From Planctomycetia bacterium (lineage in GTDB: Bacteria > Planctomycetota > Planctomycetia > Pirellulales > UBA1268): a stretch of DNA of 57,468 bases. Of the stretch, positions 17,405 to 33,147 are shown piece after piece. The stretch spans positions 1 through 57,468 of the forward strand of contig JAIOPD010000065.1 in NCBI GenBank assembly GCA_021414115.1. Direction: 5' to 3'. Position numbers and translations under genes: made by a program. A model generated the notes under the pieces. The model did no database searches. It saw nothing but the letters and a program-made list of their open reading frames with translations, and had not been told where the DNA came from. The first letter of the stretch is position 1; every line of letters starts with the position of its first letter.

Positions 17405-17958
17405 TTGCAGAAACCACGGGAAAGAGTGGGGTTCGGGATCGGGCAGGCGGTAACGAAATCCGCCGACAGGGGGAACCCGACCCCGGCAGGGTGCATCGCA
17501 ATGAGCGAAGCCACCATTCGCTGAATCCGCTCGGGGATGTCGGCTGATTCGTTGGGCATGTGGATGCGTAACAAAACAAGCCATAAGGGTTTACGTTGTT
17601 ACTCAAAATGTGGAAATTGTTCAGGAATCCGACGGGCATGCAGAGCGGTGGCTCGGTGCGGCGCACCTGGAAGGAGCCGCCCGACGAATTTCCCGTAATC
17701 GACATCCGCAGCCACTGACGCCGCCCTCGTGCTGCAGCCTTACGCGGGGGCTCAACCGCAGGCTGGCGGCACGGAGCCTTTCGAGCGCGTCCTTCGCGGG
17801 AATCGAGGAGTTGCGAACGGCGTTCGCGCCGTCATTCAGGATCTCGACCAGGCGTCGCATTTGTCAGTCCCGCTGTGCTGGTGCCAGACGGCGTTGATAG
17901 GTATCGTCCGGGCCGACGTTTCCTGGTAGCAGCGGGCGTCGCACGGACGAACGATCGT
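17405..17958. other. Intergenic stretch, no confident gene
   Basis: About 550 bp between scar (c) and the LRR-BVMO gene. Minus-strand frames include a protein-like patch (MPNESADIPERIQRMVASLI at about 17500-17560) and another (MRRLVEILNDGANAVRNSSI near 17800-17860), but each runs into clear nonsense or the tRNA half. They may be eroded gene ends. No RNA gene or terminator was recognised. Confidence 0.4.
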
Positions 17959-20445
17959 ATGGACATAAGACAACCCGCAGGGCTGCTCGGGCCAGACGAG
18001 GCTCTGGCCCTGACCGAGAAACCGGGATTCCTTGATCTGAGCAAGGTCACGGCGCTCGGATCGGGGGCGGCTAGGCAGCTCGGCCGCCACGGCGGCCCGA
18101 TCTCCCTCGCGGGTCTCCGTCACCTCGCGCTGGACGACGCCAAGCACCTTGGGCGGCATTGCGATCTCTTGATTCTGGACGGTCTCTCGACCCTCGATGC
18201 CGAGGTGGCGGTTCTTCTTGGCCGGCATCGTGGTGGACTTTCGCTGCGCGGTATCCGCACCCTCGATCCCGCGGTCGCCAACGGGTTGGCTTCTGCCCGA
18301 GGAGACATCTGGCTCATGGGGCTGCGCTCGCTTGATGTCGACACCGCCGCGGCACTCGCCTCCGTGAGTGGCACGCTGGTGCTCGATGGGCTGACCGAGG
18401 TCACGGAAAACGTGGTGGCTGCGTTGGCAAAGCACCGCGGTGGGCTCTCGCTCGGCGGATTGCAGGCCATGAGTGAATCGCATGCCCGCCTGCTTGCGCG
18501 GCACACGGGCAGCCTGACGCTCGACGCGGTTTCGGCCATGTCCGCGGAAGCTGCGGCCGCGCTGGCCGGGCACCGGGGCGGGCTTTCGCTCGGTGGTCTG
18601 TCGGAGCTTCCGCACGATGTCGCCGGAGCGCTGGCCACGACGGCGGATGATCTGCGGCTCGATGGCCTTCGTTCGCTGCCTGACGACGTCGCGGCGGCGC
18701 TGGCGGGGCATCGAGGGTGGCTGTCGCTCAATGGCCTGAGCGTGATCGAGGCCGCCGCGTGCCGGACATTGGCTGGGCATCCCGGCTGGCTGTCGCTCAT
18801 GGGGCTCGCGGACGTTTCCGACGCCTGCGCTCTCGAGCTTGCCGATCATGCCCGCCTGAGGCTGCCGCCTAGGCTGCTCGAGGGGAAGCGATCGCGTGAC
18901 GGCGTGCAGGCAGCGGGTGCGACGGCCAGTCGCGAAGAGCCATCTTTCGGGGTAGCGATCATCGGTTCCGGGTTTGCGGGCATCGGGATGGCGATCGGCC
19001 TGCGGAATGCTGGGCGGCAGGATTTCGTGATCTTCGAAAAAGCAGCCACGCTCGGCGGAACCTGGCGAGACAACACCTATCCGGGCTGTGCGTGTGACAT
19101 CCCGTCGTACCTCTACTCGTATTCATTTTTTCCCGAGCCGAACTGGTCTTCACGCTATGCGCCGCAGCAGGAGATCCTCGCCTACATGGAGAAGGTCGCC
19201 CGGTCACACGGCATCGAGCCCTTCATTCGGTATCGTACGGCGATCACGGCGCTGGAGTGGAACGAGGCGGATCAGCTGTGGCAGCTCACGGCTGCCGACG
19301 GAAGGCAGTATCGCGCCCGAGCCGTGATCGGCGCCGTGGGAGGCATTCATCATCCACAGGTGCCCGAGATTCACGGCCTTCGCTCCTTCGCCGGACCGGC
19401 GTTTCACACGGCCCGCTGGCGGCACGACATCGACCTAACGGGTCGGAAGGTTGCCGTGATCGGCACCGGTGCGAGCAGCATTCAGGTGGTGCCCGAGGTG
19501 GCGAAGGTCGCCAGCAGGCTCATCGTCTACCAGCGAACGCCGGCATGGGTCCTGCCCCGCAAGGATCGCCGCTTCTCCCGCCTGTTCCGCTGGGCTGCGG
19601 CGCGAGTGCCCGGCGTGCACCGTTTGCGGAGGTTCGTCGACTACTGGTCGGCGGAACTGCGGGCCATTCCCCTGATCCTCGATCCTCGGTTGCTCGTGCA
19701 TGGCCAGCGGACGACCGACAAGTTTCTCAAGCGATGCATCACGGAGATGCAGATTCGCCGCAAGCTGGTACCCCGCTACTCGATGGGCTGTAAGCGGATT
19801 CTTACCTCGAACGACTACTATCCAGCGCTCGGTCGCGATCACGTCGAAGTGGTCATGGAACCGATCATCGAGGTGCGGCCATGGTCCGTGGTGACGGCGG
19901 ACGGCGCCGAGAGAGCCGTCGATGCGATTGTTCTCGCGACCGGATTCAAGCCCTTCAACATCACCGACGGCATGCGCGTCACGGGCCGGGCAGGCGCCAG
20001 CCTGGCCGCTGCGTGGCGCAATGGCCCGGAAGCTTTCCGCGGGGTCGCCGTGGCGGGATTTCCAAACCTTTTCCTGATGATGGGCCCGAACACCGCTCTC
20101 GCCCACAACTCCATCATCGTCATGATCGAAGCGCAGGTGCGTTACATCGTCCAGTGCCTGCAGTGGCTCGCCGACGGCAGGCTCGACAGCGTCGAGGTGC
20201 GGCCCGACGTGCAGCGGGTCTACAACGAACGGCTCGTCGGGCGGTTCGAACGCACGGTCTGGTCACCGGAGGTGGAGTCGCCGCGGCGTGGCCGGGCGCT
20301 GGTGCCGTGCACGACGTGGTATCGCCATCCGTCGGGGAAAAACCATGTGCTCTGGCCAGGATCCTCGGTGTCGTACTGCGCGGCTCTGCGACACGCCGAC
20401 ATCCGGGACTTCCTCCCGAAGGACGGCGGATCGCCTTCGCGATAG
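17959..20445 (+). CDS. LRR-like repeat domain fused to a Baeyer-Villiger-type flavin monooxygenase
   Basis: The 828-residue product has two parts. Residues about 24-302 are twelve 23-residue repeats of the form LSL.GL..L....A.AL..HRGG, an LRR-like solenoid common in planctomycetes. Residues about 328-828 form a flavoprotein monooxygenase: FAD site IIGSGFAG (334-341), GGTWRDNTYPGCACD (366-380), the Baeyer-Villiger fingerprint FAGPAFHTARW (477-487, FxGxxxHxxxW), NADPH site IGTGASS (501-507), and DAIVLATGF near the C-terminus. All key motifs are present, so it should be active, oxidising ketones, aldehydes or heteroatoms with NADPH and O2. The linker (303-327) is polar. I prefer ATG 17959; GTG 17875 would add 28 unconvincing residues. 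It has no clear signal peptide. Nearby glycan genes run on both strands. Confidence 0.88.
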   Translation: MDIRQPAGLLGPDEALALTEKPGFLDLSKVTALGSGAARQLGRHGGPISLAGLRHLALDDAKHLGRHCDLLILDGLSTLDAEVAVLLGRHRGGLSLRGIRTLDPAVANGLASARGDIWLMGLRSLDVDTAAALASVSGTLVLDGLTEVTENVVAALAKHRGGLSLGGLQAMSESHARLLARHTGSLTLDAVSAMSAEAAAALAGHRGGLSLGGLSELPHDVAGALATTADDLRLDGLRSLPDDVAAALAGHRGWLSLNGLSVIEAAACRTLAGHPGWLSLMGLADVSDACALELADHARLRLPPRLLEGKRSRDGVQAAGATASREEPSFGVAIIGSGFAGIGMAIGLRNAGRQDFVIFEKAATLGGTWRDNTYPGCACDIPSYLYSYSFFPEPNWSSRYAPQQEILAYMEKVARSHGIEPFIRYRTAITALEWNEADQLWQLTAADGRQYRARAVIGAVGGIHHPQVPEIHGLRSFAGPAFHTARWRHDIDLTGRKVAVIGTGASSIQVVPEVAKVASRLIVYQRTPAWVLPRKDRRFSRLFRWAAARVPGVHRLRRFVDYWSAELRAIPLILDPRLLVHGQRTTDKFLKRCITEMQIRRKLVPRYSMGCKRILTSNDYYPALGRDHVEVVMEPIIEVRPWSVVTADGAERAVDAIVLATGFKPFNITDGMRVTGRAGASLAAAWRNGPEAFRGVAVAGFPNLFLMMGPNTALAHNSIIVMIEAQVRYIVQCLQWLADGRLDSVEVRPDVQRVYNERLVGRFERTVWSPEVESPRRGRALVPCTTWYRHPSGKNHVLWPGSSVSYCAALRHADIRDFLPKDGGSPSR

Positions 20446-20498: not shown

Positions 20499-21611
20499 CT
20501 ACGCAGCGCGGGTGACGCGGGCGACTTCGGTCCGGTCTTCCTCGAGATGCCGCCGCAGGCGGGCGCGCTCGGCGGCCGCGAGACGGAGGCCCGCGCCGAG
20601 CTTCGCGAGCAGCTCAATGTCGTAGTAGCGGAGGGCGTTGCACAGCACGTAGATCTCGTGCAGCAAATCGGGTGTGCCTGCCGGCGACGTGATGTCGCAG
20701 ATGTTGTCGGAGCCGAGCCGCACGTGGATCCCCGCGTCGAGCATCTCCAGCACCCGGGCGATTGAGTTGAAGGTGGGGGTGGCGACCGTGCGGTATTGCC
20801 GCATGCTGATCGCCGCCGACGGGCAGCAGATCACGCCGAGGTTCAGCGCCGCGATCCCGGCGAGCAGCCGGGCGAAACGCCGCTCGTCGTAGGTGGAGGG
20901 GGAGATCACGTGCACCAGCCAGATCCGGGGCGGCTCGAATGGGCTCGAGCCCATGTCGAGCTCGTCCACCAGTCGCACGACCGTCTCGGTTGCCGTCTCC
21001 GCCGGATGATTCATCTGATCGACGTGGATGTGCAGCTCCTTGCCGAGTTCGGCGGCCAGGAGGATCGCCCGTCGGCAGCACTCCTCGAAGCCCACGTGCT
21101 CCGGATAGCGGCGGCGGTCATCTCGCTCCGGCAGAAGCCCGACGAAGTCGGCCAGCCTCGCGCCGTCTTTCAGCAGCGCCCAGCGGTGCGGCTCGTCGTC
21201 GCGGAAGCCGAGCGGCGAATAGGCGCCCACGGCAAGGTCGAGCGAGCCGCGGCGGGCGTCGCGAATGCGGAGCAGCGATTCGACCGCGGCGAGGCCCACG
21301 CGGTCGGCGGTCGTATCGACGACGGTCGCGGCCCGCGTCGTGCCCGCCTCCAGCATCCGATCGAGGAACCACTCGACGCGGCCGCTGAGATTCTCTGGCT
21401 CGTAGCAGGAACTCGCATGGATCGCCGGGATCAGCGAATGCTTCGCGGCCAGCGAGAGCCGCGACTCGAGCCCTCGATCCCGGGCCTCGAGAATCTCTCG
21501 CGTGGCATCAAGGGTGCCGGATCGGTCGAGGTGCAGATGGGCGTTGTAAAACCCGCCGAGTTCCATCACGCGGGCGTGCAAGGCTTCGAAGAATGGTGTC
21601 GCGTGGCGCAT
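20499..21611 (-). CDS. Cytosine deaminase-like metal-dependent amidohydrolase
   Basis: The 370-residue protein carries the amidohydrolase signature: NAHLHLDRSGT (H25 and H27 metal ligands), HIHVDQ near 195-200, a histidine in WLVHVISPS near 235, and LGSDNICDITSP near 320 supplying the catalytic Asp. These match the cytosine deaminase/AtzC-like branch of TIM-barrel hydrolases that deaminate ring amines or cleave C-N bonds. The substrate cannot be read from sequence. Start ATG 21611 follows gcaattc-poor sequence without a clear Shine-Dalgarno. It converges with the BVMO gene and is followed upstream by a glycosyltransferase on the same strand with a 35-bp gap. Biochemically it could act on a nitrogenous heterocycle; a role in the glycan locus is unproven. 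Confidence 0.75.
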   Translation of the reverse strand: MRHATPFFEALHARVMELGGFYNAHLHLDRSGTLDATREILEARDRGLESRLSLAAKHSLIPAIHASSCYEPENLSGRVEWFLDRMLEAGTTRAATVVDTTADRVGLAAVESLLRIRDARRGSLDLAVGAYSPLGFRDDEPHRWALLKDGARLADFVGLLPERDDRRRYPEHVGFEECCRRAILLAAELGKELHIHVDQMNHPAETATETVVRLVDELDMGSSPFEPPRIWLVHVISPSTYDERRFARLLAGIAALNLGVICCPSAAISMRQYRTVATPTFNSIARVLEMLDAGIHVRLGSDNICDITSPAGTPDLLHEIYVLCNALRYYDIELLAKLGAGLRLAAAERARLRRHLEEDRTEVARVTRAA

Positions 21612-21646
21612 GCGTCGAATCCCGATGATTCCCGTGGGGCCGCGGC

Positions 21647-22732
21647 TTAGGCGGCACGTCTCAGCGTCCCGCCGGTCTGACCGATCGGCGCCGGAAAGGC
21701 CGAGATTTCAGTCTGCGAGTCGGTTGTGGCGGCGTAGGCATACAGCGTCGATTCGGCACCGCAGAGCGCCTGGAGCCGTCCGGCGGCCCAGCCCAGCGAG
21801 CGCGCCGCGATGGTCAGCGAGCCGATGCCAAAAAGCGGTATGGCTAGCAGGGCGAGGCCTGCGACCGTTCGCACGACGCTCATCGCCGCGGTTGTGGCCA
21901 CGACGGTGGTCGTGATGCGGTCATGCTTCATTCGGAAATGCGTGATCGATTGCGAGGCGCCCCGCCAGAACTGGTAGCGAAGCGTGAGTCGGTCCGGCGG
22001 AATCATTTCATGCACGACTGCATCGGGCGCCCACGAGCAGCGGCATCCCGCGGCGATGGCCGCCCGGCAGAAGGCGGTATCGGAGCCGCCGGTGAGCAGC
22101 AATCGCTCATCGAACATGAGTCCGCTCGCCGCCAGCCAACGCAGGTCGCAAAGCCAGTTATTCGTCACGATCGTGTAGTGTCCGCCCGAGGCCGCGGCGG
22201 TGGCGGTACCTGCGTATTTGCGTCGGGAGCGGGAGGCAAGGCTCGCGTTGACGAGCCGCTGCCAGATCGTTGCCGTCGGGGGTGTGGGCGAGACGCCGAC
22301 CGGGCCGCCCACGAGTTCCGCGCCCGACCGCCGCCACTCGCCGGCGAGGTTCACGAGCCAGTCGGGCTCGGGCACCTCGTCGTCGTCGATGAAGCAGACC
22401 GCGTTGGCGTTGCTCGCCAGGGCTTCACGGAGGGCACGATTTCGTGCCACCGGGATACCGACCCGCGGTTCGACCACGTACTGCGTGCCCGGAATACGGT
22501 CGCGATAGGCATCGACGGTCGCACGGCCCGAGCCCTGAGCGTCGTTGTCAACCACGAGCAGTGTGACATCGGCGTCGGGAGGCAGTTCGACCCGGGAATA
22601 GCCCTCGAGAAACTCGGCAAGTTCGCGGGATCGGCGGAACGTCAGCACCGCCACCAGGATTAACTGCCGGCTGTCGCCATCCGGCACCGGGGCGGAAACC
22701 ACGCGAAGCGGAGGTCTGGGTGCCATGGGCAA
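21647..22732 (-). CDS. Family 2-type glycosyltransferase with C-terminal membrane segments
   Basis: The 361-residue protein has a GT-A fold start (LILVAVLTFRRSRELAEFLE), nucleotide-sugar region LLVVDNDAQGSG, GIPVARNRAL and the metal-binding FIDDDEVPEPDWL near 115-127. GLMFDERLLLTGGSDTAFCR near 215-235 supplies the acceptor-side acidic motif. Hydrophobic stretches near 285-330 indicate one or two membrane helices, so it likely works at the inner face of the cytoplasmic membrane. The specificity is unknown. It lies between an amidohydrolase and a pyruvyltransferase-like gene on the same strand; the 134-bp gap to the latter argues for a separate or weakly linked promoter. ATG 22732 is preferred, but MAPRPPLRV two codons on is equally possible. 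Confidence 0.8.
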   Translation of the reverse strand: MPMAPRPPLRVVSAPVPDGDSRQLILVAVLTFRRSRELAEFLEGYSRVELPPDADVTLLVVDNDAQGSGRATVDAYRDRIPGTQYVVEPRVGIPVARNRALREALASNANAVCFIDDDEVPEPDWLVNLAGEWRRSGAELVGGPVGVSPTPPTATIWQRLVNASLASRSRRKYAGTATAAASGGHYTIVTNNWLCDLRWLAASGLMFDERLLLTGGSDTAFCRAAIAAGCRCSWAPDAVVHEMIPPDRLTLRYQFWRGASQSITHFRMKHDRITTTVVATTAAMSVVRTVAGLALLAIPLFGIGSLTIAARSLGWAAGRLQALCGAESTLYAYAATTDSQTEISAFPAPIGQTGGTLRRAA

Positions 22733-22866
22733 AAGCCGGTGAGTCCGTGGTCCGAAGCTGCCGGGGGCGGTGCCCCCCCGCGACGCCTACGGGAGAAATA
22801 AGCATCGGCGGAATCGACACGACCGCTCCAATCGAACCGTGCACGGAATCGTGTTCCTGTACAGTT

Positions 22867-24228
22867 CTACGGTCCCCGGGCCTTTTCCGAGCGAGCCATG
22901 CTGGCCCGGAGCGAGGGCCGGAAATCCGTCGCTTGCCGCAGGCAACGCAGCTGCCAACGGCCAAGCATGGCCAACGGGCTGCGAGGGGCACGATTTTTTG
23001 CGACATAGAGATCATCGTGCGGGCCGGGCTCAGGGAATCTTGATGGTGCCGGCGTCAGGCATTGCGGTGTTCCGGTCACGACACCATCGGTCACGAACTG
23101 CCGAATGATGTCGCCGAACCGGGCCTGGCAGCTGCGGATCTGCCGGACGGCTGCGCGAATCCGTTGGCGGAGTTCCTCGCCGGCGTCGATGAGCCGGCTG
23201 GCCTCACTTACGATTCCCGGCACGTCGTCGCTGGAGATGACGGGAAACTCGAGCCCGAGCATGGGCCCGAGCCCCTCGGTCTTGAACGTGTTGCCCGGGA
23301 GAAGAACGACCGGCGTACCCTCAGAAAGCGCGCTGATCGACGTGTGGTATCGACCTCCGAGCACCAGCGTCGCGGCCGCGAGCAGCGGGAGAATCTGCTC
23401 GAAGTGTCCGAACTCATCGGATGAGACAACGTCACAGGGGATGCCCCCCAAGGACCTCTCCGCGGCTCGGACAATGCCCCCGTCTGCCGGCCGCGAGAAG
23501 ACGAACACCGGCCTGAGTCCATGACGGCCCGCGATCTCTCGCACCGCCGCGAGGGTCGAGCCGATGCTGTGAGCCGTGAGTACTGCGGAGCCTGAGATGC
23601 AGAAGTATGGAACGGGCGGCACTGGAGCCGGCGGCCCCGGGAAGGCCGGCGTTGCGGCGAAAGCCATGTCGGGGCAGAGGAGCAGTTCGTCGAGCCCGAT
23701 GCCTCGGGCAAAGGCGTAGGAGCGTGCCTCGCGGACGGCGACGAGGGCGAATGCGCCGAAGATGCCGGCCACGACTTCGGCATCGGCGGCACTGCACGCG
23801 TAGAGGGTCTGGTTGACGGCCAGTACGGGCTTTTGCCACAGGTGCGCGGCGAGAAAAGGCGGGCCGAACAACTGCACATTCCGCAGGTACGCCTGCGGTC
23901 CGACCGTTCCCTCGCCCTGAAATACCACGATGTCTGCTGTTTCTGCTTCTCGGAGAATGTCGCCGAAGCGCTCGCTCGTCAGGGCGTGGAGGAACCGGAG
24001 GTCATTCGCGGAGGGGGACGGGCTGGCGTACATCGCACGAATGCTCGCGCCGTGCGCTGCCGCCACCAGTCCGTCGACCGGATGGGTCTTGGGAAGCGGC
24101 ACGGTGACGATCTCGAGGTCCGGAACGCCTTCGAGGCTCGAGCGGAGAAAGCCAAGCAGGTTACGACTCGTCGCCTGGCAGCCCCAGTTCGCACGATCAC
24201 CTGTGTAGTTGAGAACGCAGATCTTCAT
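22867..24228 (-). CDS. Polysaccharide pyruvyltransferase family protein
   Basis: I start at ATG 24228, giving 453 residues. The product begins MKICVLNYTGDRANWGCQAT, an N-terminal Rossmann-like strand with the NxGD/WG pattern of this family. Later motifs are VVFQGEGTVGPQ near 100, VREARSYAFARG near 165, and GGRYHTSISALSEGTPVVLL near 300, which contains the conserved R/SYH signature. Members add ketal pyruvate from PEP to sugars or act as related polymer-modifying transferases. An upstream extension of 82 codons is Arg/Pro-rich shadow sequence and was rejected. The gene is divergent from the sulfotransferase at 24473 across a 244-bp gap that must hold two promoters. The C-terminal 70 residues are basic and lack a family match by eye. 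Confidence 0.8.
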   Translation of the reverse strand: MKICVLNYTGDRANWGCQATSRNLLGFLRSSLEGVPDLEIVTVPLPKTHPVDGLVAAAHGASIRAMYASPSPSANDLRFLHALTSERFGDILREAETADIVVFQGEGTVGPQAYLRNVQLFGPPFLAAHLWQKPVLAVNQTLYACSAADAEVVAGIFGAFALVAVREARSYAFARGIGLDELLLCPDMAFAATPAFPGPPAPVPPVPYFCISGSAVLTAHSIGSTLAAVREIAGRHGLRPVFVFSRPADGGIVRAAERSLGGIPCDVVSSDEFGHFEQILPLLAAATLVLGGRYHTSISALSEGTPVVLLPGNTFKTEGLGPMLGLEFPVISSDDVPGIVSEASRLIDAGEELRQRIRAAVRQIRSCQARFGDIIRQFVTDGVVTGTPQCLTPAPSRFPEPGPHDDLYVAKNRAPRSPLAMLGRWQLRCLRQATDFRPSLRASMARSEKARGP

Positions 24229-24472
24229 GGCGGGGCGATGTCTGCGCGAGGTCGGTCTGTGTGCGGCGGTGATACTTCGCGGCAAAAGCTCGGGCAACGG
24301 CACTTTCGCAGAGGGACCCCCCGGTTCGCCCAGCCTGCCACGCCTGCCACGCCGCATGCCGGCGGGGCCACGGTTGACGTGCCCCCGCGTGGAGCAGTAT
24401 TTCTCGCTGCCACGGTGTACCGGCCACCGGCCGCGGGCTCGGGCCGCACGTTGTTCCGCCAGGACGCTCTCC

Positions 24473-25207
24473 ATGCGGTCGATCAGGCAATTGTTGCAGT
24501 TGACGAGGCTGCGAACCGCTGCGCCGCGGAAGGTTCACTTCCTGCACGTGGGAAAATGCGCCGGCACGGCGATCAAGGATCTTGCAACGCGGATCAACGC
24601 GCTGCCGAACGGCCCGCGAATTCTCGCGCACGGGCACAGCAAGAAGCTCGCGGAACTGCCTTGCGATGCAACCTACTTCTTCTCGGTGCGGCATCCTGTC
24701 AGCCGGTTCGTGAGCGCGTTTTCCATGCGAAAGCGCAAGGAACAGCCGCGGCTCTATCGTGAATGGACGGCAGGCGAGCAGGAGGCGTTTGAGCGGTTTC
24801 CCGAGGCCAACGATTTGGCGGAGAGCCTGTTCGCCCCTTCGGCCGCGGGAAGGGCCGCCTTCGCAGCCATGCAAAGCATCGGCCACATGTCGTTTCAGCA
24901 CGGCTTGTTCAAGGTCCGCGACGTCTTGTTCGCCCGTCCGCCGCTCTGCGTGCTTCGCCAGGAGAAGCTCGCTGCCGACGTGGCCCATCTGCTTCGGCTG
25001 CTGGACATTGACCAGGAGGTCGGGCTGCCCGCCGACAGCACGCGGGCGCACCGGAACGACTATTCCCGGACGCCTCCTCTCAGCGGCAAGGCGATCGAGA
25101 ACCTGACGGCGTGGTACGCGGTGGACATCGAGTATTACCGCCTGATCGACGCGTGGGTCGACGAGTCGCAGGGGCAATCTTCCGTCTTGGAAAGGCAGAC
25201 AGCGTGA
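24473..25207 (+). CDS. Sulfotransferase family protein
   Basis: From ATG 24473 the 244-residue product has KVHFLHVGKCAGTAIKDL at 20-37, the 5'-phosphosulfate-binding loop in the H.(P/G)KCAGT form used by carbohydrate sulfotransferases, and FFSVRHPVSRFVSAF at 69-83, the 3'-phosphate-binding R.P..R..S motif. It should transfer sulfate from PAPS to a sugar hydroxyl. A longer ORF begins at 24209, but its first 88 codons are low-quality and overlap the divergent gene. The stop TGA (25205-25207) overlaps the GTG start of the next gene, so the two are translationally coupled. It opens a four-gene coupled run. Confidence 0.85.
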   Translation: MRSIRQLLQLTRLRTAAPRKVHFLHVGKCAGTAIKDLATRINALPNGPRILAHGHSKKLAELPCDATYFFSVRHPVSRFVSAFSMRKRKEQPRLYREWTAGEQEAFERFPEANDLAESLFAPSAAGRAAFAAMQSIGHMSFQHGLFKVRDVLFARPPLCVLRQEKLAADVAHLLRLLDIDQEVGLPADSTRAHRNDYSRTPPLSGKAIENLTAWYAVDIEYYRLIDAWVDESQGQSSVLERQTA

Positions 25208-26379
25208 TCCGCAAGGCTCTTGCGTCTCTTCGTGGCTGGCAGGACGCATGGCACGCGCGGCGACTTCTCGCCGAGAACTTCGCCCGGCGCCGCCATGCAC
25301 CGCTGGCGATCGAGCAGCTCTTTCCGTCGGGCGGCACGCCCCGACGGATCCTGCTCCTGGTCGAGCGGGAGGAACTCTACGGTCGGTCCTTCTTTCTCGA
25401 CAGCCTCGGCGGACAAATCGTCCGTGGGATTCCGCCGCAGACCCGGCCCGATGATGTCGCGATCTGCTTCGGCTACACGGCCCTCGAGCGGCATGCGGCC
25501 CGGCTGCGAGCCAGCGGCATCACGAACCTGCTGTTCATCGAAGCCGGCTTCCTGCGCGGGGTGCTGCTCGACAATTCCTGCTCGATCTACGACCAGGCCC
25601 TCTGCTTCTTTGTGGACGATCTCGGCTTTCACTTCGATCCCACGTCTGCCACGCGGCTGGAGTGCCTGCTCAACGATCCGCAGCTGAATCCCACGGCAGC
25701 CGACCTAGAGCGAGCCCGGGCATTGCGCACGCGGATCGTGGAGTCGCGGCTCACCAAATACAACGACCAGCCCATGGCAGTTCCGGTCGGGCCGAAGCAG
25801 TCTGGCCGCGTGCTCGTCGTCGAGCAGGCCCGTAACGACTGGGCTGTGCTCAAGAGCGGTGGCAATCGCCGGTGTTTCGACTCGATCCTGCAGGCCGCGA
25901 TCGACGAGAACCCGGATGCCGAGATAGTCGTGAAGGTGCATCCCGACTCGCTCGACGGCAAACGAGGCGGCCTGCGGCGATCGTACTTCGGCCGCCTGCA
26001 GGGAAGCGGCCGGGTCACGATCGTGAGGGAGAAGGTCAATCCGTTCGCGCTCCTGGAGAGTATCGACGCGGTGTATGTCTTTTCGTCGATGCTCGGCTTC
26101 GAAGCCGCTCTCATGGGGAAAGACGTGCACGTCTTCGGAAAGCCCTGCTACGCCGGCTGGGGCTTTACCCGGGATCGTCGCGCCGTTCCCCGGCGCGACC
26201 GCCACCGCTCGCTCGATGAACTCGTACACTTCATCTACTTCGCGTATCAACACCACAAGGATCTCGAGGGCCAGTGGTGCGAGCCCGAGGCTGCGGTCGA
26301 CATACTCCTGGCATTGCGTGAGCGGTACATGGCGGAGGCGGAGGCGGTATCGCCGGGCCGCGCGTCGGAGGCTGCCTGA
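25204..26379 (+). CDS. Capsule polysaccharide biosynthesis protein, KpsC/LipA-like
   Basis: From GTG 25204 the protein has 391 residues. ILLLVEREELYGRSFFLDSL and LFIEAGFLRGVLL fit the first Rossmann half, and VLVVEQARNDWAVLKSGGN the second. Conserved features of the capsule-synthesis family follow: VVKVHPDSLDGKRGG, FALLESIDAVYVFSSMLGFE, then DVHVFGKPCYAGWGFTRDR with RHRSLDELVHFIYFAY. KpsC-type proteins are retaining beta-Kdo transferases that make the linker of group 2 capsules; here only one unit is present. The GTG overlaps the upstream TGA by four bases, and the next gene starts two bases after this stop, which implies one operon. A role in starting or anchoring a surface polymer is inference. 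Confidence 0.8.
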   Translation: MIRKALASLRGWQDAWHARRLLAENFARRRHAPLAIEQLFPSGGTPRRILLLVEREELYGRSFFLDSLGGQIVRGIPPQTRPDDVAICFGYTALERHAARLRASGITNLLFIEAGFLRGVLLDNSCSIYDQALCFFVDDLGFHFDPTSATRLECLLNDPQLNPTAADLERARALRTRIVESRLTKYNDQPMAVPVGPKQSGRVLVVEQARNDWAVLKSGGNRRCFDSILQAAIDENPDAEIVVKVHPDSLDGKRGGLRRSYFGRLQGSGRVTIVREKVNPFALLESIDAVYVFSSMLGFEAALMGKDVHVFGKPCYAGWGFTRDRRAVPRRDRHRSLDELVHFIYFAYQHHKDLEGQWCEPEAAVDILLALRERYMAEAEAVSPGRASEAA

Positions 26380-26381
26380 CG

Positions 26382-29159
26382 ATGGATCGCTTCGTCGATA
26401 TCCCTACACTGCTCGTGACGCGCGGCCGCACGCACGCCACGCGGTCGGCGATCGAGACCCCGGCGGGCGCCGTGCTGACCTACGCCGAACTCGCCGCCCG
26501 CGTGGCCGTCATCGCCACAGGCCTGGCGGCCGCGAGGATTCGTTCGCGGCGGCGGCGACCGCGGATCGCGATCGTGATGCCCAATGGTGCGGATCTGGCC
26601 GTGGCCCTGCTCGGCGTGACCGCCGTGGGCGAGGCAGCGCCCTTCAATCCGGCGAGCACGGCCTCCGAGCTCGACCTTTACTTTCGCAACACTGGCGTCG
26701 ATGCGGTGCTCGTGCGGGCCGATGCCAACGGCGCGGCTGTCGCCGTGGCAGAGGCGAGCGGCCTGCCGCTCCTCCGGCTCACGCCTCGGCTCGAGATCGC
26801 GGGCTTCGAGCAGCCGGCGGCAGAGTTGCCGCCAGCCGCGGCCGATGACATCGCGCTCGTGCTGCTGACGTCGGGCTCCACCGGGCGGCCGAAGATCGTG
26901 CCGCTCACCCACCGGAACGTCTGCGTATCGGCCGGCGACGTGAGCCGGTCGATGCAGCTCACCGAACACGATTGCTGCCTCTGCATGTGGGAGCAGTATC
27001 ATGTCGGGGGCCTCGTGGATCTTCTCCTCGCGCCGCTCTCGACCGGCGGCCAGGTGATCGTCACGGCGGGCTTCGACGCGGCGGATTTTTTCAAGCTTCT
27101 GCACGCAAAGTCGCCCACCTGGTTTCAGGGCGTGCCCACGACGCTCAACGAACTCGTGCTCTCGGCCAGGCGGACCGGAGTGGTAACCAAGGCCAGCTCG
27201 CTCCGACTCGTGCGGTCGGTGGCCGCCGCCCTGCCGCCGACGCTCATGCACGAACTCGAGGCATCGTTCGGCGTGCCCGTGATCCAGACCTTCGGAATGA
27301 CAGAGGCCGGCCCGCTCATCACCTCGACACCGCTACCGCCCGGGGAACGAGTACCGGGCTCCGTGGGGGCGACGTGCGGGCCCGAGATCAGGATCGTGCC
27401 CGGGGCTGCGCCGACACCTGACGGTGTACCGGACGGTCGGCTCGTCGGCGAGGTGGCCATCCGCGGCCCGAATGTGTTCGCGGGCTACGAGAACGACGCC
27501 GAGGCGAACCAGAAGGCCTTTCGTGACGGCTGGTTCTTGACCGGCGACATGGGCTTTCTCGATGCCGCGGGCAATCTCCATCTTACGGGCCGGATCAAGC
27601 AGCTCATCAACCGGGGTGGCGAGAAGATCAACCCGCAGGAGGTCGACGACGCGATTCTGTGCCATCCCGCGGTCGCTGAGGCGGCCACGGTGGCCGTTCC
27701 GCACAAGACCCTTGGCGAGGATGTCGCGGCTGCCGTCGTGCTCAAGAGCGCGACGACTGCGGACGACCTCCGCCGGTTTCTCGAGACGCGGATCGCGGCC
27801 TTCAAGATTCCACGGCAACTGCTCGTGCTCGACAGACTGCCGCGGAATCCCGTCGGCAAGCTCGACAAGATCGCCATCTCCGGCGTGCTCGCCGCGGCCT
27901 GCGCCGAGACGGGCCACGTCGCGCCCCGCACACGGCTCGAAGCTCTGATCGCCGGCATCTGGGAGCAGGAGCTCGGCATTCCCGCCGTTGGCGTGCACGA
28001 CGACTTCGCCACGATCGGGGGGGATTCGCTGAGCAGCGTGCGGATTCTCCTGGCGGTCGAGCAGGCGGTCGGTAGCCGGGTTCCCCAGGCGGTGTTTGCC
28101 CACGCCTCGACGATCGCGACGATCGCCGCGAAACTCGGGGCGGCCGGCGTGAAGGCTCCCGGTCTCGATGGCCAGGCGATCGAGGCGGTGCTTTCCACGG
28201 CGCGGACGGGCACCGAATGCCTCGGCTCATCGCCCGGCGAGGCGAGCATGCGGCTTGAAAAGGCCGCATCGACGGGAGACCTGACGAGCGTTCACGACTC
28301 GATGTCGCTCTACGCCACGCCGGCGGAGCTCAAACAGCTCCTGCACGATACCCGGCGGACTCGGCCCGCGAGGTCCGCACCGGATGTCGGCTTACGGGAT
28401 GCCTGCAAGCTCTGGCAGCAGCACGCCCGCTGGCGCCGGGATGTGCTGCGGGAGATCACGGCAGCGGCTACGGCGGATGCCTGGCGGCGAGAGAGCCTGT
28501 GCCGGTCGGTGTTTCATTACTCCGCCGCCGGCCGCCCCGAGGCGAAGACGCTCGTGGTGGGCTTCGGGGGCAACTACCTGCGACTGATGGTGCCAGCGCA
28601 TCGCATCCTGATGCACCTCGATCCGCAGCGGGTGGATCTCCTGCTGCTTGCCGACGAGCGGCGGTCGCTCTTCGTGCATGGCATCGACGGGATCGCCGGC
28701 AGCCTCGCCGACCTGTGCGACCACGTGGATCGGTTCGCGTCGGCCAGGGGCTATGCACGGGTGGTTGCGCTGGGCACCAGCAGCGGCGGTCCACCGGCCA
28801 TCTACGCCGCGATTCGCCAAGGCTGGGACAAGGCGGTCGCCGTGGGGCCGGGCAGCCCGGCTCGTCATCCCGACATGGCTGTCGCCCTCCAGTCGGTCGT
28901 GCCGCTGCAGGCCACGAGGCCGACGGAGATCGTCATCGTCACGTCGGCCAACGTCCGCGACACCGACGCCGCCCACCAACTCCGCAGCCTGTTCCCGGGC
29001 ATCGTACTGGAACGAGACGATCGATTCGACAACCACAACCTACTACACGACCTGCAGAGAATGGGGGAACTGCGGTCGTTTCTCACCCGCGCGGTGCATG
29101 GGCCGCGTGGGGCCGACCACCCGGGAGCAGCGCGAGCATCGGCTCGCCCGGCGGCATGA
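26382..29159 (+). CDS. Adenylation-carrier-hydrolase protein (ANL ligase + PCP/ACP + alpha/beta hydrolase)
   Basis: The 925-residue protein has three modules. Residues 1-505 are an ANL adenylation domain: LLTSGSTGRPKIVPLTH (161-177), FGMTEAG (304-310), TGDMG (387-391), GRIKQLINRGGEKINPQEVD (403-422) and NPVGKLDK with catalytic Lys near 495. TSTPLPPGERVPGSVG recalls oxalyl-CoA-synthetase-type ligases more than canonical NRPS domains. Residues about 515-585 are a carrier domain with IGGDSLSSVRI; Ser549 is the phosphopantetheine site. Residues about 720-905 resemble an alpha/beta hydrolase with GTSSGG near 799-804 (probable nucleophile Ser801) and a late His in DNHNLLHDL. It could activate an acid, load the carrier and pass it to a sugar or release it. 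No condensation domain is present. It starts two bases after the capsule gene. Confidence 0.85.
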   Translation: MDRFVDIPTLLVTRGRTHATRSAIETPAGAVLTYAELAARVAVIATGLAAARIRSRRRRPRIAIVMPNGADLAVALLGVTAVGEAAPFNPASTASELDLYFRNTGVDAVLVRADANGAAVAVAEASGLPLLRLTPRLEIAGFEQPAAELPPAAADDIALVLLTSGSTGRPKIVPLTHRNVCVSAGDVSRSMQLTEHDCCLCMWEQYHVGGLVDLLLAPLSTGGQVIVTAGFDAADFFKLLHAKSPTWFQGVPTTLNELVLSARRTGVVTKASSLRLVRSVAAALPPTLMHELEASFGVPVIQTFGMTEAGPLITSTPLPPGERVPGSVGATCGPEIRIVPGAAPTPDGVPDGRLVGEVAIRGPNVFAGYENDAEANQKAFRDGWFLTGDMGFLDAAGNLHLTGRIKQLINRGGEKINPQEVDDAILCHPAVAEAATVAVPHKTLGEDVAAAVVLKSATTADDLRRFLETRIAAFKIPRQLLVLDRLPRNPVGKLDKIAISGVLAAACAETGHVAPRTRLEALIAGIWEQELGIPAVGVHDDFATIGGDSLSSVRILLAVEQAVGSRVPQAVFAHASTIATIAAKLGAAGVKAPGLDGQAIEAVLSTARTGTECLGSSPGEASMRLEKAASTGDLTSVHDSMSLYATPAELKQLLHDTRRTRPARSAPDVGLRDACKLWQQHARWRRDVLREITAAATADAWRRESLCRSVFHYSAAGRPEAKTLVVGFGGNYLRLMVPAHRILMHLDPQRVDLLLLADERRSLFVHGIDGIAGSLADLCDHVDRFASARGYARVVALGTSSGGPPAIYAAIRQGWDKAVAVGPGSPARHPDMAVALQSVVPLQATRPTEIVIVTSANVRDTDAAHQLRSLFPGIVLERDDRFDNHNLLHDLQRMGELRSFLTRAVHGPRGADHPGAARASARPAA

Positions 29160-29929
29160 TGCCTCTCGCAAGCCTGTTCCGATCCCGGCAAGCAGCCGAC
29201 GAGGTGCCGCGGGTGGCCATCATGGGCGGTCTCCGCACGGGCACCAACTATCTGAAGTTTCTGCTCGAGAGCAACTACGTGGTGCGGGGGGAATTCAACG
29301 GCTTCGGCTGGAAGCACGGGGGCGTGCCGATACTGCCGGCGGGCGGGCCCTGCGCCTATCCCGACATCCCGCTCTGCTACATCGTCAAGAATCCTTTCGC
29401 CTTCGTGCGCTCGCTCCATAGCTACCACTGCCGTAAGCGGGACCAGGGGCATGCGATCAGCCTCGTCGCGGCTGAGCCGTGGGACGAGTTTCTCACCAGC
29501 CCGATCGTGATCTTCGACAGCCAATTGGCCGGCTCGCCGCAGTTGCGATTTGCCAACCCGGTTCACTACTGGAACTTCTTGTATTGGAACCTTGAGACGC
29601 TCGACCGGCAGCGGTTTCGCGTCTGGGGCGTGAACTACGAGGATCTCGTCGCCGACCCGCAGCGGCTCCGGGAGATCGAAGGTGTGGCACCGCTCGTGCG
29701 TCGTCACGCTGAAATCGTGACGCCCGGTAACAAGCTCAAGCGGCTCGGCGGCGGGGCCGACGTCGCGGCGGCCAGTGGGTACGAAACTGCCGAGCGGTTC
29801 GATGCCGACGCCTACATGTCGGCCGCCTATCTCGACGCCTTCAGTGAAGCCCAGCGGGCATTCATTCGTGCCGAAACCGATCCCTGGCTGATCGACCGCC
29901 GCGGCTATGCCGACGTGCTGCGCGGGTGA
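29156..29929 (+). CDS. Sulfotransferase-like protein
   Basis: ATG 29156 overlaps the preceding TGA by four bases (ATGA), giving 257 residues. VAIMGGLRTGTNYLKFLLES at 20-39 is a P-loop-like PAPS-binding segment of the sulfotransferase fold (G..R.GTNYL). LCYIVKNPFAFVRSLHSYH near 80-98 fits the second, R/K-x-P-type phosphate-binding element. WNLETLDRQRFRVWGVNYED gives the usual late acidic motif. The family is more diverged than the one at 24473, and the donor cannot be confirmed. It is the last gene of the plus-strand coupled run and converges with a glycosyltransferase only six bases away. It may sulfate the same polymer as 24473, or act on a different acceptor. Confidence 0.75.
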   Translation: MMPLASLFRSRQAADEVPRVAIMGGLRTGTNYLKFLLESNYVVRGEFNGFGWKHGGVPILPAGGPCAYPDIPLCYIVKNPFAFVRSLHSYHCRKRDQGHAISLVAAEPWDEFLTSPIVIFDSQLAGSPQLRFANPVHYWNFLYWNLETLDRQRFRVWGVNYEDLVADPQRLREIEGVAPLVRRHAEIVTPGNKLKRLGGGADVAAASGYETAERFDADAYMSAAYLDAFSEAQRAFIRAETDPWLIDRRGYADVLRG

Positions 29930-29935
29930 ACGCTG

Positions 29936-30739
29936 CTACTCTCGCCAGATGCCGTGCTGCTCCTGAAAGTAGCGAATGCAGGCGGCGTTGGCCTGCTCGC
30001 GGTGGTGGTCGGCGTAGACGTAGTCCACGAGGGCCGCGACGTCTGCGAGGTCGGTCTTGTGCGACAGCTCGGTGGCCGATGCCTTGAGGATCGGAATCCC
30101 GGCGAGGGCCAACTGGCCGGAGAGCCAGATGTCGTCCACGGTCCAGAGCAGGTCAGGGATGTCGAATGCCGCTGGCGTGAAAAACTCCGGCCGCACGAGC
30201 ACGCCGCCGTAGCCCTTGCAGATGTCAACGCGTCCGGCCTCGACCTCGAGGGCCTTCATGCCGCGGCGGTACATCGAGCTGAAGAGCCCGAGCGTGGCGG
30301 TCGCGAGGCCGCGATAGAGGCGGGTGGACTTGAAGGCCTTTTTGAGCGTGAGAGGCACAACTTCGCCCACCTCGGCAATGCAGCAGCCAGGCTGGGTGTC
30401 GCTCGCTGCGAGGAGCCGCGCGGCCCAGCCAGGATCGTAGATTCGGTCGTCGTCGCAGTAGAGGATCCGCATGTCGTGACCGCGAAATGCCGCGCACGCG
30501 GGCAGAATTTTTGTGGCTGGCCCGTGGTCGAAGTCGCAGCGTCGCACCTCGATGCCGGCCGGCAAGGCCGGCAGTGTGAACGAGCCAAACTCCGGGCGGC
30601 GGTAGGCGCGGGGAATCCAGAGGATCACGCCGTCGATCCGGGCCTCCTGCCGCAGCAGGCTCTCGAGGGTAGGCCCGATTCGGTCCATCCGTGGCGGAAT
30701 CGATGTCAGGGAGATGATGGTGTCGGGGGCTTTGGGCAT
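29936..30739 (-). CDS. GT-A fold glycosyltransferase family protein
   Basis: I start at ATG 30739 (267 residues), where the product opens MPKAPDTIISLTSIPPRMDR; the longer upstream ORF is Arg-rich noise. Conserved elements are LESLLRQEARIDGVILWIP, TKILPACAAF, and MRILYCDDDRIYDPGWAARL near 95-115, whose DDD is the metal-binding motif. DLLWTVDDIWLSGQLALAG gives a second acidic pair. The layout matches bacterial GT-A enzymes that add sugars to surface polymers. It is divergent from 30813 with a 73-bp gap, so promoters lie back to back. No signal peptide or membrane helix is visible, which implies cytoplasmic action. Confidence 0.75.
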   Translation of the reverse strand: MPKAPDTIISLTSIPPRMDRIGPTLESLLRQEARIDGVILWIPRAYRRPEFGSFTLPALPAGIEVRRCDFDHGPATKILPACAAFRGHDMRILYCDDDRIYDPGWAARLLAASDTQPGCCIAEVGEVVPLTLKKAFKSTRLYRGLATATLGLFSSMYRRGMKALEVEAGRVDICKGYGGVLVRPEFFTPAAFDIPDLLWTVDDIWLSGQLALAGIPILKASATELSHKTDLADVAALVDYVYADHHREQANAACIRYFQEQHGIWRE

Positions 30740-30812
30740 CGGAAGTCTGCGACAGCGTCGCGGGCCGCAACTGAGGTTGCCCCCAGAAGTGGCGGTTTGG
30801 GACAATCCAACT

Positions 30813-31835
30813 ATGTTCAACCTCTTTCGCAGCCGACGCCAGTCCAAACGTCCGCACGGCCGCCGGTCGGCGCCGGACCCTCACGAGATCGTGTCGTCGT
30901 TCCGGCTGGCCGGCCAGGATGGCCACCCGGCGGCCACGTCACCCGTGTCGTTCCTGCACTACCGCACCTCGGTCTTCAATCTCGGGGATTACCTCAGCAG
31001 CCCACGGCACTATTTTCGGTTCGTGCCCCGAGCCGGCGGCCGGCCGGTGGCGGTGATCGGCGGGGGCGTCTTTGGTCGCTACGAGCGGATTCGCGGTCCA
31101 GGGGAGCCGATCGACCTCGACAACCGGTCGCGGGTGGCGTGGGGGGTGGGGCTCAGCCTCAAGGGAGAAGATGGTGGCGGCGTCGAGCGGCTTGCCGAGA
31201 TGGCGCGGTCGTTCGACGCGGTCTCTACCCGTGATCCCGATCACGTCAGCGACGCGGTGCAATTCTGTCCGTGTTCGAGCGTGCTCAACGGCATCGTGGA
31301 CATCCCGCCGGGTGAGCACACGGGGGTTCTGCTCAACTTCGACCCCCGGGCCAGCGGCCGAAATCCGCTCGCGATGCTGGCGACCTTTCGCGATGTCGTG
31401 ACGGGCGTGAATGCCGTGTCGGAGCGGGACTTTCGCCGCTATTTCGCCCGCTGTGGCCGGGTCGTCACCAACTCTTATCACACGGCGTTTTGGGGGCTGC
31501 TCTCCGGGCGGGCGGTGGCGATCATCGGCTTTTCGTCGAAGTATGACAGCATCCATTCGATGTTCGGCCTGCCGTTAGCACCGCGACGCTACGTCATGGG
31601 AGACGCGGAAAGCCTGCGGGCCGCGATCGCGGCCGCGCTCGCCGAAAACTCCTTTGTGTCGCTTGCCGACGCCCCCGCCTGGTGCGACCGGTTTCGGGAC
31701 CTGAATCGCCGGTATGCCGACCGGCTCGTGGCGGCAGGGCTCTTTGAGCGGATCGAGCCGATCGTGGACGATGACGACGCGCTCGACCGCCGGGAGGCCG
31801 AGATCTTCGCCGAGTATGTGCTCCGGGAGTGGTGA
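30813..31835 (+). CDS. Polysaccharide pyruvyltransferase-like protein
   Basis: Starting at ATG 30813 gives 340 residues. The core reads FLHYRTSVFNLGDYLSSPRH, GGRPVAVIGGGVFGRYERIR, then VAWGVGLSLKG, AVSTRDPDHVSD with a conserved SxRD pattern, and RVVTNSYHTAFWGLLSGRAV, which contains the SYH signature. FSSKYDSIHSMFGLPLAPRR follows. Members of this superfamily transfer pyruvate or related groups onto cell-wall polymers. It differs clearly from the family member at 22867, so two separate modifications are possible. The following gene starts four bases after this stop and is probably co-transcribed. The basic N-terminal 40 residues lack a signal peptide. Confidence 0.78.
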   Translation: MFNLFRSRRQSKRPHGRRSAPDPHEIVSSFRLAGQDGHPAATSPVSFLHYRTSVFNLGDYLSSPRHYFRFVPRAGGRPVAVIGGGVFGRYERIRGPGEPIDLDNRSRVAWGVGLSLKGEDGGGVERLAEMARSFDAVSTRDPDHVSDAVQFCPCSSVLNGIVDIPPGEHTGVLLNFDPRASGRNPLAMLATFRDVVTGVNAVSERDFRRYFARCGRVVTNSYHTAFWGLLSGRAVAIIGFSSKYDSIHSMFGLPLAPRRYVMGDAESLRAAIAAALAENSFVSLADAPAWCDRFRDLNRRYADRLVAAGLFERIEPIVDDDDALDRREAEIFAEYVLREW

Positions 31836-31839
31836 GGGC

Positions 31840-33147
31840 ATGCTGCCCCGTATTGGTGCCATCTCGGTTTCTGGGCTCGGGCGGCTCGACTTCCGCGCGA
31901 TCGCGCCGGCGGTGTGGCGTAGCGTCACCTCCCGGTGCGGAGATCCGCTGCGGCATCTGGCTGCCGAGTCGGCGTTCCTGGCAGGAGAGTTCGATCGTGC
32001 GCTCGCTCGTTTTCGAGGCGTGACACGTGACCCAGTGCTGGGGCCGCGGGCCCGGCTGATGGAAGACTGGATCCGGTTTCACCGCGACGATGTTTCCGTC
32101 GGCTGGCCGCGTTATCCGGGCACCGACTACCAGGAGCCCGTCGCAGGCAGGGCGACCACCGCCATGCGCGGCGTGCGCGTTGCCGATCCACGTCGCCCGG
32201 ATGAGCTGGCAACGCATCTCGGAATGCGACGTTGGACCCGGACCGATTCACTCGATGGACCACTGCTTGTGTGGTTCAACTTTCGTGACAGCCTGGGCGG
32301 CGAGATTCTCGCGAGTCGATTGATCCGGTCGTTTCGGCGGCTTCATCCCGTTCCGCTGTTCCTGGGCTGTGGTTCGCGGCTCGTGACGCTCTTCCGGGAG
32401 TCGTTCCCCGAGTGTGAGGTGATCGATAACTCGGGCCCCGTGGACGGGCTCGCCGGACGCTGCCAGCGCTACGTGCTCGCCCGCGATCTTTTGGGCATGG
32501 TGGTAGGTCGTCCGGAAGACTTCGCCGGCCCTGCGGCCGAGCGGCTCCGCGTGCCCGCGGCAGCGCTCGGCACCTTGCCCGGCAGAGCGCACCGCCCGCA
32601 GGTGGCCTTCTCGTGGAAAACGACGAACGATCACCAAGGTCGCTATCGCAACGTGCCGGTCGCCGATCTGGCACGAGTGCTGGCCCGCCACGATTGCGAC
32701 TGGCACGTGGCCCAGCATGGTGCCGTGGCAGATGATCTCGCCGTCCTGCGGCGGTCGGTAGCCAAGGACCGTCTGCACACCGACACCCTGCACCCGGCGG
32801 CCGACATGGCGACGTTCGCGGGCGAGTTGGCGGCAGTCGATGCCGTGGTCACGGTCGACAACTCCTTGCTGCACCTTGCCGGTGGCCTGGGGATCCCGAC
32901 CCTCGGCCTGCTCACCATCCCTGCGTATTGGGCCTGGCCGGTCGAAGGCCCGGAGAGTCGCTGGTATTCAGCCGTCCGGATGCTGCGGCAGCGGAAGCCG
33001 GGCGACTGGCGAGCCGTGATCGAATCGTTGGACGCCGCTCTTCTTCAAACTACGAAACGGGTTTCGGAAACCGCGGTGATGTCCCTGGTCATGTCGCGCA
33101 CCACGAAGGTGACGGCGTCGACGACCGGCATGCCCTGGAAACCGTAA
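31840..33147 (+). CDS. GT-B/family 9-like glycosyltransferase, C-terminus probably replaced at an island junction
   Basis: ATG 31840 gives 435 residues. LLVWFNFRDSLGGEILASRL near 132 and VAFSWKTTNDHQGRYRNVPV near 250 define the two Rossmann halves. VDAVVTVDNSLLHLAGGLGI near 335-355 is the nucleotide-sugar site of GT9 and O-GlcNAc-like enzymes, followed by PTLGLLTIPAYWAWPVEGPE and RQRKPGDWRAVIESLDAAL. The last ~34 residues (from about 33046) are antisense to the DPAGR-family gene and look random, so the native stop was probably lost when the island inserted. All catalytic parts lie upstream, so activity may survive. The gene is the end of the glycan locus. The first ~100 residues are not recognised. 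Confidence 0.72.
   Translation: MLPRIGAISVSGLGRLDFRAIAPAVWRSVTSRCGDPLRHLAAESAFLAGEFDRALARFRGVTRDPVLGPRARLMEDWIRFHRDDVSVGWPRYPGTDYQEPVAGRATTAMRGVRVADPRRPDELATHLGMRRWTRTDSLDGPLLVWFNFRDSLGGEILASRLIRSFRRLHPVPLFLGCGSRLVTLFRESFPECEVIDNSGPVDGLAGRCQRYVLARDLLGMVVGRPEDFAGPAAERLRVPAAALGTLPGRAHRPQVAFSWKTTNDHQGRYRNVPVADLARVLARHDCDWHVAQHGAVADDLAVLRRSVAKDRLHTDTLHPAADMATFAGELAAVDAVVTVDNSLLHLAGGLGIPTLGLLTIPAYWAWPVEGPESRWYSAVRMLRQRKPGDWRAVIESLDAALLQTTKRVSETAVMSLVMSRTTKVTASTTGMPWKP

Follow-up and report, generated by a model that had tools for sequence, protein, structure and literature searches.

A gene cassette of an adenylation-carrier-hydrolase protein and a cytosine-deaminase-like amidohydrolase, with a possible role in glycan acylation

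What does a protein that joins an adenylation domain and a carrier to a hydrolase-like domain do in the middle of a capsule and sulfotransferase operon? The question was raised by a contig of a Planctomycetia bacterium (JAIOPD010000065.1; its positions 1-57,468 were analysed and are called the window here), for which a first-pass annotation had proposed that the hydrolase-like domain moves a carrier-bound acid onto a sugar. Bacterial polysaccharide acylation is usually ascribed to CoA-dependent or membrane-bound acyltransferases; if the proposal is true, one protein able to activate an acyl group, carry it and transfer it unaided would represent a new route of polysaccharide acylation.

Domain structure of the window protein

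The gene, called the A-carrier gene below, and the parts of its product have the following window positions:

26382-29159, plus strand: adenylation (A)-carrier-alpha/beta hydrolase protein, one ORF with ATG start, 925 aa
26433-27488, plus strand: AMP-binding core of the A domain, aa 18-369 (PF00501, E 7.7e-61)
27639-27860, plus strand: AMP-binding_C subdomain, aa 420-493 (PF13193, E 1.4e-15), with the lysine-bearing NPVGK at aa 489
27948-28130, plus strand: carrier domain, aa 523-583 (PF00550, PP-binding, E 9.3e-11; GGDSL)
28161-28472, plus strand: helical linker, aa 594-697 (helices alone in the AlphaFold2 secondary structure)
28473-29111, plus strand: predicted alpha/beta-hydrolase domain, aa 698-910 (AlphaFold2, structure matches, conservation)
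28779-28781, 28959-28961 and 29034-29036, plus strand: candidate catalytic triad Ser800, Asp860 and His885
28866-28868, plus strand: His829, an extra invariant residue of the hydrolase domain

The A domain contained the ANL core motifs LTSGSTGRPK, GWFLTGD and NPVGK, with both PF00501 and PF13193 above the cut-off, and its best PDB matches were oxalate-CoA ligases (5ie0, E 9.2e-85) followed by malonyl-CoA synthetases, in agreement with its first description as an oxalyl-CoA-synthetase-like domain. The A-domain family departed from the oxalate-CoA ligases in two places, the TEATHLM stretch and the residues directly following the motif His, and the fused carrier suggested that the carrier, rather than CoA, was the target of thiolation. 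The phosphopantetheine residue of the carrier, Ser549 (codon 28026-28028, motif GGDS549L), had its equivalent in essentially all relatives, and the Pfam scan of the 925-aa protein gave no match to a condensation domain, both as originally annotated. Full-length relatives shared 38-98% identity with the protein, the closest being the protein of a same-genus relative (98% identical) with mostly synonymous codon differences. Asp213 was invariant in the A domain and, as a lead, may hint at an amine-bearing substrate.

No Pfam family, the PF00975 thioesterase included, matched the C-terminus in the Pfam scan. The AlphaFold2 model of aa 594-925, built from an alignment of 16 sequences, reached a pLDDT of 88.6, and its structure matches (Foldseek, VIA) were alpha/beta hydrolases (1tqh, Z 16.8, rmsd 3.3 over 181 residues), upholding the hydrolase-like character ascribed to this region; the nearest solved structures were ordinary esterases. 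In the model, Ser800 occupied the nucleophile elbow; strand 7 was directly followed by Asp860, and His885 came after strand 8. Assigned from sequence order and predicted secondary structure, the three residues make a plausible triad in the nucleophile-acid-histidine order of the alpha/beta-hydrolase fold. Loss of such a triad had been named at the outset as evidence against acyl transfer; Ser800 was present in 16/16 aligned window-type sequences (those sharing the hydrolase-like end), and the window protein and 14/16 of the alignment also had Asp860 and His885. In two window-type proteins from Roseobacter genomes (L041:7215-9953 and L042:7145-9946), the Ser was the sole triad residue left, Asp and His both being lost, and a P450 gene adjoined the gene. 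The hydrolase domain alone had no match in viral contigs or plasmids, and its weak matches in genomes G212, G091, G210, G513, G466 and G652 were of partial coverage and fell in other kinds of ORF.

Operon, partner amidohydrolase and occurrence of the cassette

The genes around the A-carrier gene in the window were assigned as follows:

20499-21611, minus strand: partner amidohydrolase, 370 aa, predicted cytosine-deaminase fold (co-occurrence with the A-carrier gene, AlphaFold2, residues)
21647-22732, minus strand: family 2 glycosyltransferase (PF00535, E 4.6e-11; homologs in loci L021 and L025)
22867-24228, minus strand: polysaccharide pyruvyl transferase family gene (PF04230, E 3.1e-17)
24473-25207, plus strand: sulfotransferase (Sulfotransfer_2, PF03567, E 2.1e-9), first of a four-gene run
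25111-26379, plus strand: Capsule_synth (KpsC/KpsS-type) gene (PF05159, E 2.2e-29; homolog in the Bauldia MAG locus L032)
29156-29929, plus strand: sulfotransferase-like gene (start codon 29156; P-loop-like N-terminus by eye; weak Sulfotransfer_3 match, E 0.029)
29936-30847, minus strand: glycosyltransferase-like gene (cluster c14, common to L025 and L032; function by eye; no Pfam match)
31840-33147, plus strand: family 9 glycosyltransferase (PF01075, E 2.1e-6; homolog in L033)

The Sulfotransfer_2, Capsule_synth, A-carrier and sulfotransferase-like genes formed a co-directional run of four. The Capsule_synth gene, whose real start is probably somewhat 3' of 25111, ended at 26379, leaving a gap of 2 bp before the A-carrier gene, and the sulfotransferase-like gene started at 29156, overlapping the A-carrier gene by 4 bp; thus the tight coupling to a KpsC-like gene upstream and a sulfotransferase gene downstream was real, although the sulfotransferase assignment of the downstream gene is weak, its Sulfotransfer_3 match falling under the cut-off. 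The stretch 24298-29939 was 96% identical to L009:4514-10159 of the same-genus relative L009/L018, compared to 84% for the left flank (20503-22851, with the amidohydrolase and glycosyltransferase) and 80% for the right flank up to 31836, and the pyruvyl-transferase-family gene at 22867-24228 had no blastn match in L009. By these identities, the four-gene block looks like one unit that was recently exchanged. The scan of the closest neighbouring genes in the window showed no DltB-type gene. An 856-aa ORF at 17875-20445 matched neopentalenolactone/pentalenolactone D synthase-type flavin monooxygenases in its C-terminal half, which was preceded by a repetitive leucine-rich stretch.

The partner amidohydrolase was encoded 4.8 kb from the A-carrier gene on the opposite strand. 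Its AlphaFold2 model (pLDDT 88.7) had the E. coli cytosine deaminase 3o7u as best match (Z 33.8, rmsd 2.4 over 299 residues), with Foldseek and profile comparison in agreement. The metal ligands H25, H27, H196 and D302 were found in at least 46 of 47 relatives, and the active-site His234 was also conserved. The catalytic Glu of CodA (Glu217 in CodA numbering) corresponded to Gln199, and Gln occupied this position in 46/47 relatives, a frequency that is partly biased because Gln belonged to one of the two search patterns. Ordinary hydrolysis by the enzyme is possibly impaired because the catalytic Glu is replaced. This recurrent amidohydrolase with its Gln poses a defined, testable puzzle.

An alignment of the amidohydrolase, used to scan 84,980 species genomes, identified 44 loci; 41 of them, spread over several phyla, were at ~43% identity or above. 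In 37 of the 41, the A-carrier gene was within the fetched locus (36 via BLAST with the window protein, L054 via clustering), and in L032, L044 and L051 it was elsewhere in the genome, apparently on the same contig in L032. The link between the two genes is not a selection effect, since the loci were gathered by the amidohydrolase gene. In a sample of 296 genomes from the window's order, 5 had the hydrolase domain at strong E-values, 6 had the amidohydrolase and 5 had both. The A-carrier protein had full-length relatives in L010, L011 and L012, from three further genomes of the order, and a partial one in L016, a Gemmobacter aquarius plasmid; an amidohydrolase homolog preceded each of the four. 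In a genome of the same family (L073, G195:C146), the amidohydrolase at 9087-10199 had a possible sulfotransferase just upstream, and no A-carrier gene was found in that genome (88% complete).

Phyla were intermingled on the amidohydrolase tree; throughout the analysis, the taxon labels of metagenome genomes are possibly wrong. Taken together, the amidohydrolase and A-carrier genes constitute a widespread and apparently undescribed gene cassette: our limited literature searches on carrier-based capsule acylation, amidohydrolase and sulfotransferase clusters, and NRPS-like enzymes with polysaccharides, with most subscription journals outside their coverage, returned no description of the cassette or of its exchanged end domain. 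Questions about it are testable because several cultured bacteria carry it, among them Gemmobacter straminiformis and Aquibium carbonis.

End domains, gene neighbourhoods and possible products

Clustering of the tails following the carrier resolved three groups: the window-type tail in 17 proteins and 1 more from the genome search, a thioesterase tail in 12 A-carrier proteins (PF00975 matched the scanned examples, with a weak match in L050), and a sulfotransferase tail in 6 (PF13469 in L046). The sulfotransferase-tail proteins were accompanied by a second protein consisting of a condensation domain, an AMP-binding_C-like remnant, a carrier and a thioesterase, with an additional TubC_N docking domain in L046. 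The NRPS genes L046:6780-9923 and L061:7596-9992, and similar ones in L048, L049 and L056, ran from condensation through what is apparently the A-domain C-terminal subdomain alone to carrier and thioesterase. Placed on the amidohydrolase tree, the end-domain label with its three states required at least 5 changes, indicating ready exchange of the ends. Near the active site, the A-domain motifs were alike across the three groups, suggesting, as far as motifs can tell, related substrates; if this is true, the swapped ends would show the routing of one building block to different products.

The neighbourhood genes were called by conservation, with parts of some loci hidden by contig ends. The 115 neighbours of window-type genes included 12 Sulfotransfer_2, 6 Sulfotransfer_3, 8 Glycos_transf_2, 5 GT92, 3 GT8, 2 NeuB and 2 cytidylyltransferase genes. 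Since the whole 4.35-Mb genome of the window had only 3 Sulfotransfer_2 and 9 Sulfotransfer_3 genes, the sulfotransferase enrichment near window-type genes was large, though it does not identify the sulfated molecule. With profiles built for this analysis, a sulfotransferase was present in 13/18 window-type loci and a sulfotransferase or recognised glycosyltransferase in 14/18, so that the homologs did not occur mainly in unrelated loci, the other finding named beforehand as adverse; L012, L041 and L042 had neither, and L041 and L042 carried a P450. The invariant partner, missed in the first-pass annotation, is the amidohydrolase rather than the capsule and sulfotransferase genes themselves. 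The thioesterase-type loci were mixed, several having a P450 and no recognised glycan genes, and the sulfotransferase-type loci featured Stf0, APS kinase, phosphopantetheinyl transferase, UDP-sugar dehydrogenase and glycosyltransferases.

Five loci (L029, L030, L035, L036 and L043) in Rhodobacteraceae, Aquibium and Methylotenera shared a recurrent mini-cluster of several sulfotransferases with GT92 and GT8, together with c7, possibly sialyltransferase-like, and c10, membrane alkaline-phosphatase-like (both by eye). In L025, L032 and L038, a NeuB with a cupin domain, a CMP-sugar synthetase and a Gfo/Idh/MocA oxidoreductase were near the cassette; this gene content suggests a nonulosonic acid in some of the cassette-associated glycans.

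We tentatively favor, at a probability of about 0.4, a reading in which the cassette loads a small acid, probably nitrogen-containing, on the carrier, and the hydrolase domain moves the acyl group to a glycan. The A domain would activate a small carboxylic acid with ATP and pass it to the phosphopantetheine of Ser549, the amidohydrolase would make or reshape the nitrogen-containing part of the acid before or after loading, and Ser800 would accept the acyl group and, by transfer as opposed to hydrolysis, deliver it to a cytoplasmic glycan intermediate, at a hydroxyl or an amine; this intermediate would also be sulfated. The search of the window's genome for condensation domains found none, which leaves release to the fused domain or to another enzyme. 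The fold, the triad and the glycan context are consistent with carrier-based polysaccharide acylation as first proposed, and CsaC of Neisseria meningitidis A, a capsule O-acetyltransferase of the alpha/beta-hydrolase fold, is a precedent for the transfer step (PMC7501274); the transfer to a sugar is itself what we infer. Several points argue against it: the end domain is swapped for a thioesterase or sulfotransferase in related cassettes, of which those with a thioesterase end or condensation domain point to a small-molecule pathway; L041 and L042 combine the lost Asp and His with a P450 and no recognised glycan gene; and the one phosphopantetheinyl transferase found in the window's genome was AcpS-like. 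This last point is compatible with loading of the carrier, since AcpS is reported to interact with the DltC carrier (PMC9338922).

A strong competing explanation, only somewhat less probable, is that the product is a small nitrogen-containing metabolite, with the hydrolase domain acting as the equivalent of a thioesterase and releasing the acid from the carrier by hydrolysis or cyclisation, and with the sulfotransferases and glycosyltransferases decorating the product or merely adjoining. This explanation owes its standing to relatives that employ ordinary thioesterases and condensation domains: the same amidohydrolase occurs with a canonical thioesterase or with the extra TubC_N-condensation-carrier-thioesterase protein, the ends are readily exchanged, an APS kinase gene lies in one of the sulfotransferase-type loci, and the P450-bearing thioesterase-type loci fit as well. 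However, the glycosyltransferase, capsule and nonulosonic-acid genes of the window-type loci, and the tight coupling of the window A-carrier gene to a capsule gene within one conserved block, speak against it. A scheme spanning both outcomes, in which the amidohydrolase assembles or modifies a nitrogen-containing acid while the carrier bears it, and interchangeable ends direct this one building block to peptides, free small molecules or sulfated surface glycans, we regard as less likely than not.

An improbable third explanation assigns the amidohydrolase a synthetic role: it would close a heterocycle or make a C-N bond in the chain while this is still tethered to the carrier, prior to sugar transfer or release. 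The cytosine-deaminase fold with all metal ligands and Gln for the catalytic Glu would suit such a carrier-tethered reaction, and the cylindrospermopsin cluster, for which ring formation with thioester cleavage was proposed, combines the amidohydrolases CyrG and CyrH with the sulfotransferase CyrJ and the APS kinase CyrN (PMC2885083). However, the likeness to CyrG and CyrH is one of cluster content, and the Glu-to-Gln replacement, its count partly biased by the search pattern, may just mean a different chemistry. The least probable explanation is that the polysaccharide genes simply lie beside an A-carrier gene with which they have nothing to do, in a variable part of the genome. Carbohydrate regions do gather unrelated genes through transfer, and the cassette is rare and patchy, with phyla mixed on the amidohydrolase tree; against this explanation, the window gene is tightly coupled on both sides and 14/18 window-type loci have sulfotransferase or glycosyltransferase genes across phyla.

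Comparison with known systems

The partner amidohydrolase has its fold in common with CodA and AtzC (Z 33.8) and metal ligands of the same type, and differs from them in sequence (~23% identity), in genetic setting and in the replacement of the catalytic Glu by Gln. NRPS-like enzymes of the atromentin synthetase type have an A-T-TE organisation. As in the window protein, the adenylation, carrier and thioesterase order comes without a condensation domain, and some cassette relatives carry a PF00975 thioesterase; the window protein is set apart by the lack of a Pfam thioesterase, by the constant amidohydrolase partner and by the glycan setting.

The Dlt system of teichoic acid D-alanylation (DltA-DltC-DltB-DltD) likewise uses an adenylation enzyme to place an acid on a carrier for delivery to a cell-surface polymer (PMC9338922 and PMC11035591). 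Dlt consists of separate proteins with the membrane-bound DltB as the acyltransferase, whereas the window protein unites the A domain, carrier and hydrolase-fold domain in one chain, and its A domain is oxalate-CoA-ligase-like. CsaC of N. meningitidis serogroup A transfers an acyl group to capsular polysaccharide by means of an alpha/beta-hydrolase fold and a Ser-His-Asp triad (PMC7501274). Its structure 6yuo was among the Foldseek matches of the C-terminal model, as one of many alpha/beta hydrolases, at rank 39 with general esterases as high or higher; the PDB sequence search gave no significant match between the window protein and CsaC, and the donor of CsaC is acetyl-CoA in place of a fused carrier. 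In lincosamide synthetase, the acid activated by an A domain and a carrier is finally joined to an amino sugar as an amide (PMC4351081), with other condensing proteins (LmbD, LmbE, LmbF and LmbV) and without a fused hydrolase domain. Thus, every part of the window protein has a known relative, with the logic found in Dlt, the transferase fold in CsaC, the domain order in the A-T-TE enzymes and the carrier-to-sugar chemistry in lincosamide synthetase, and the cassette would combine carrier-based acylation as in Dlt with NRPS-like enzymes.
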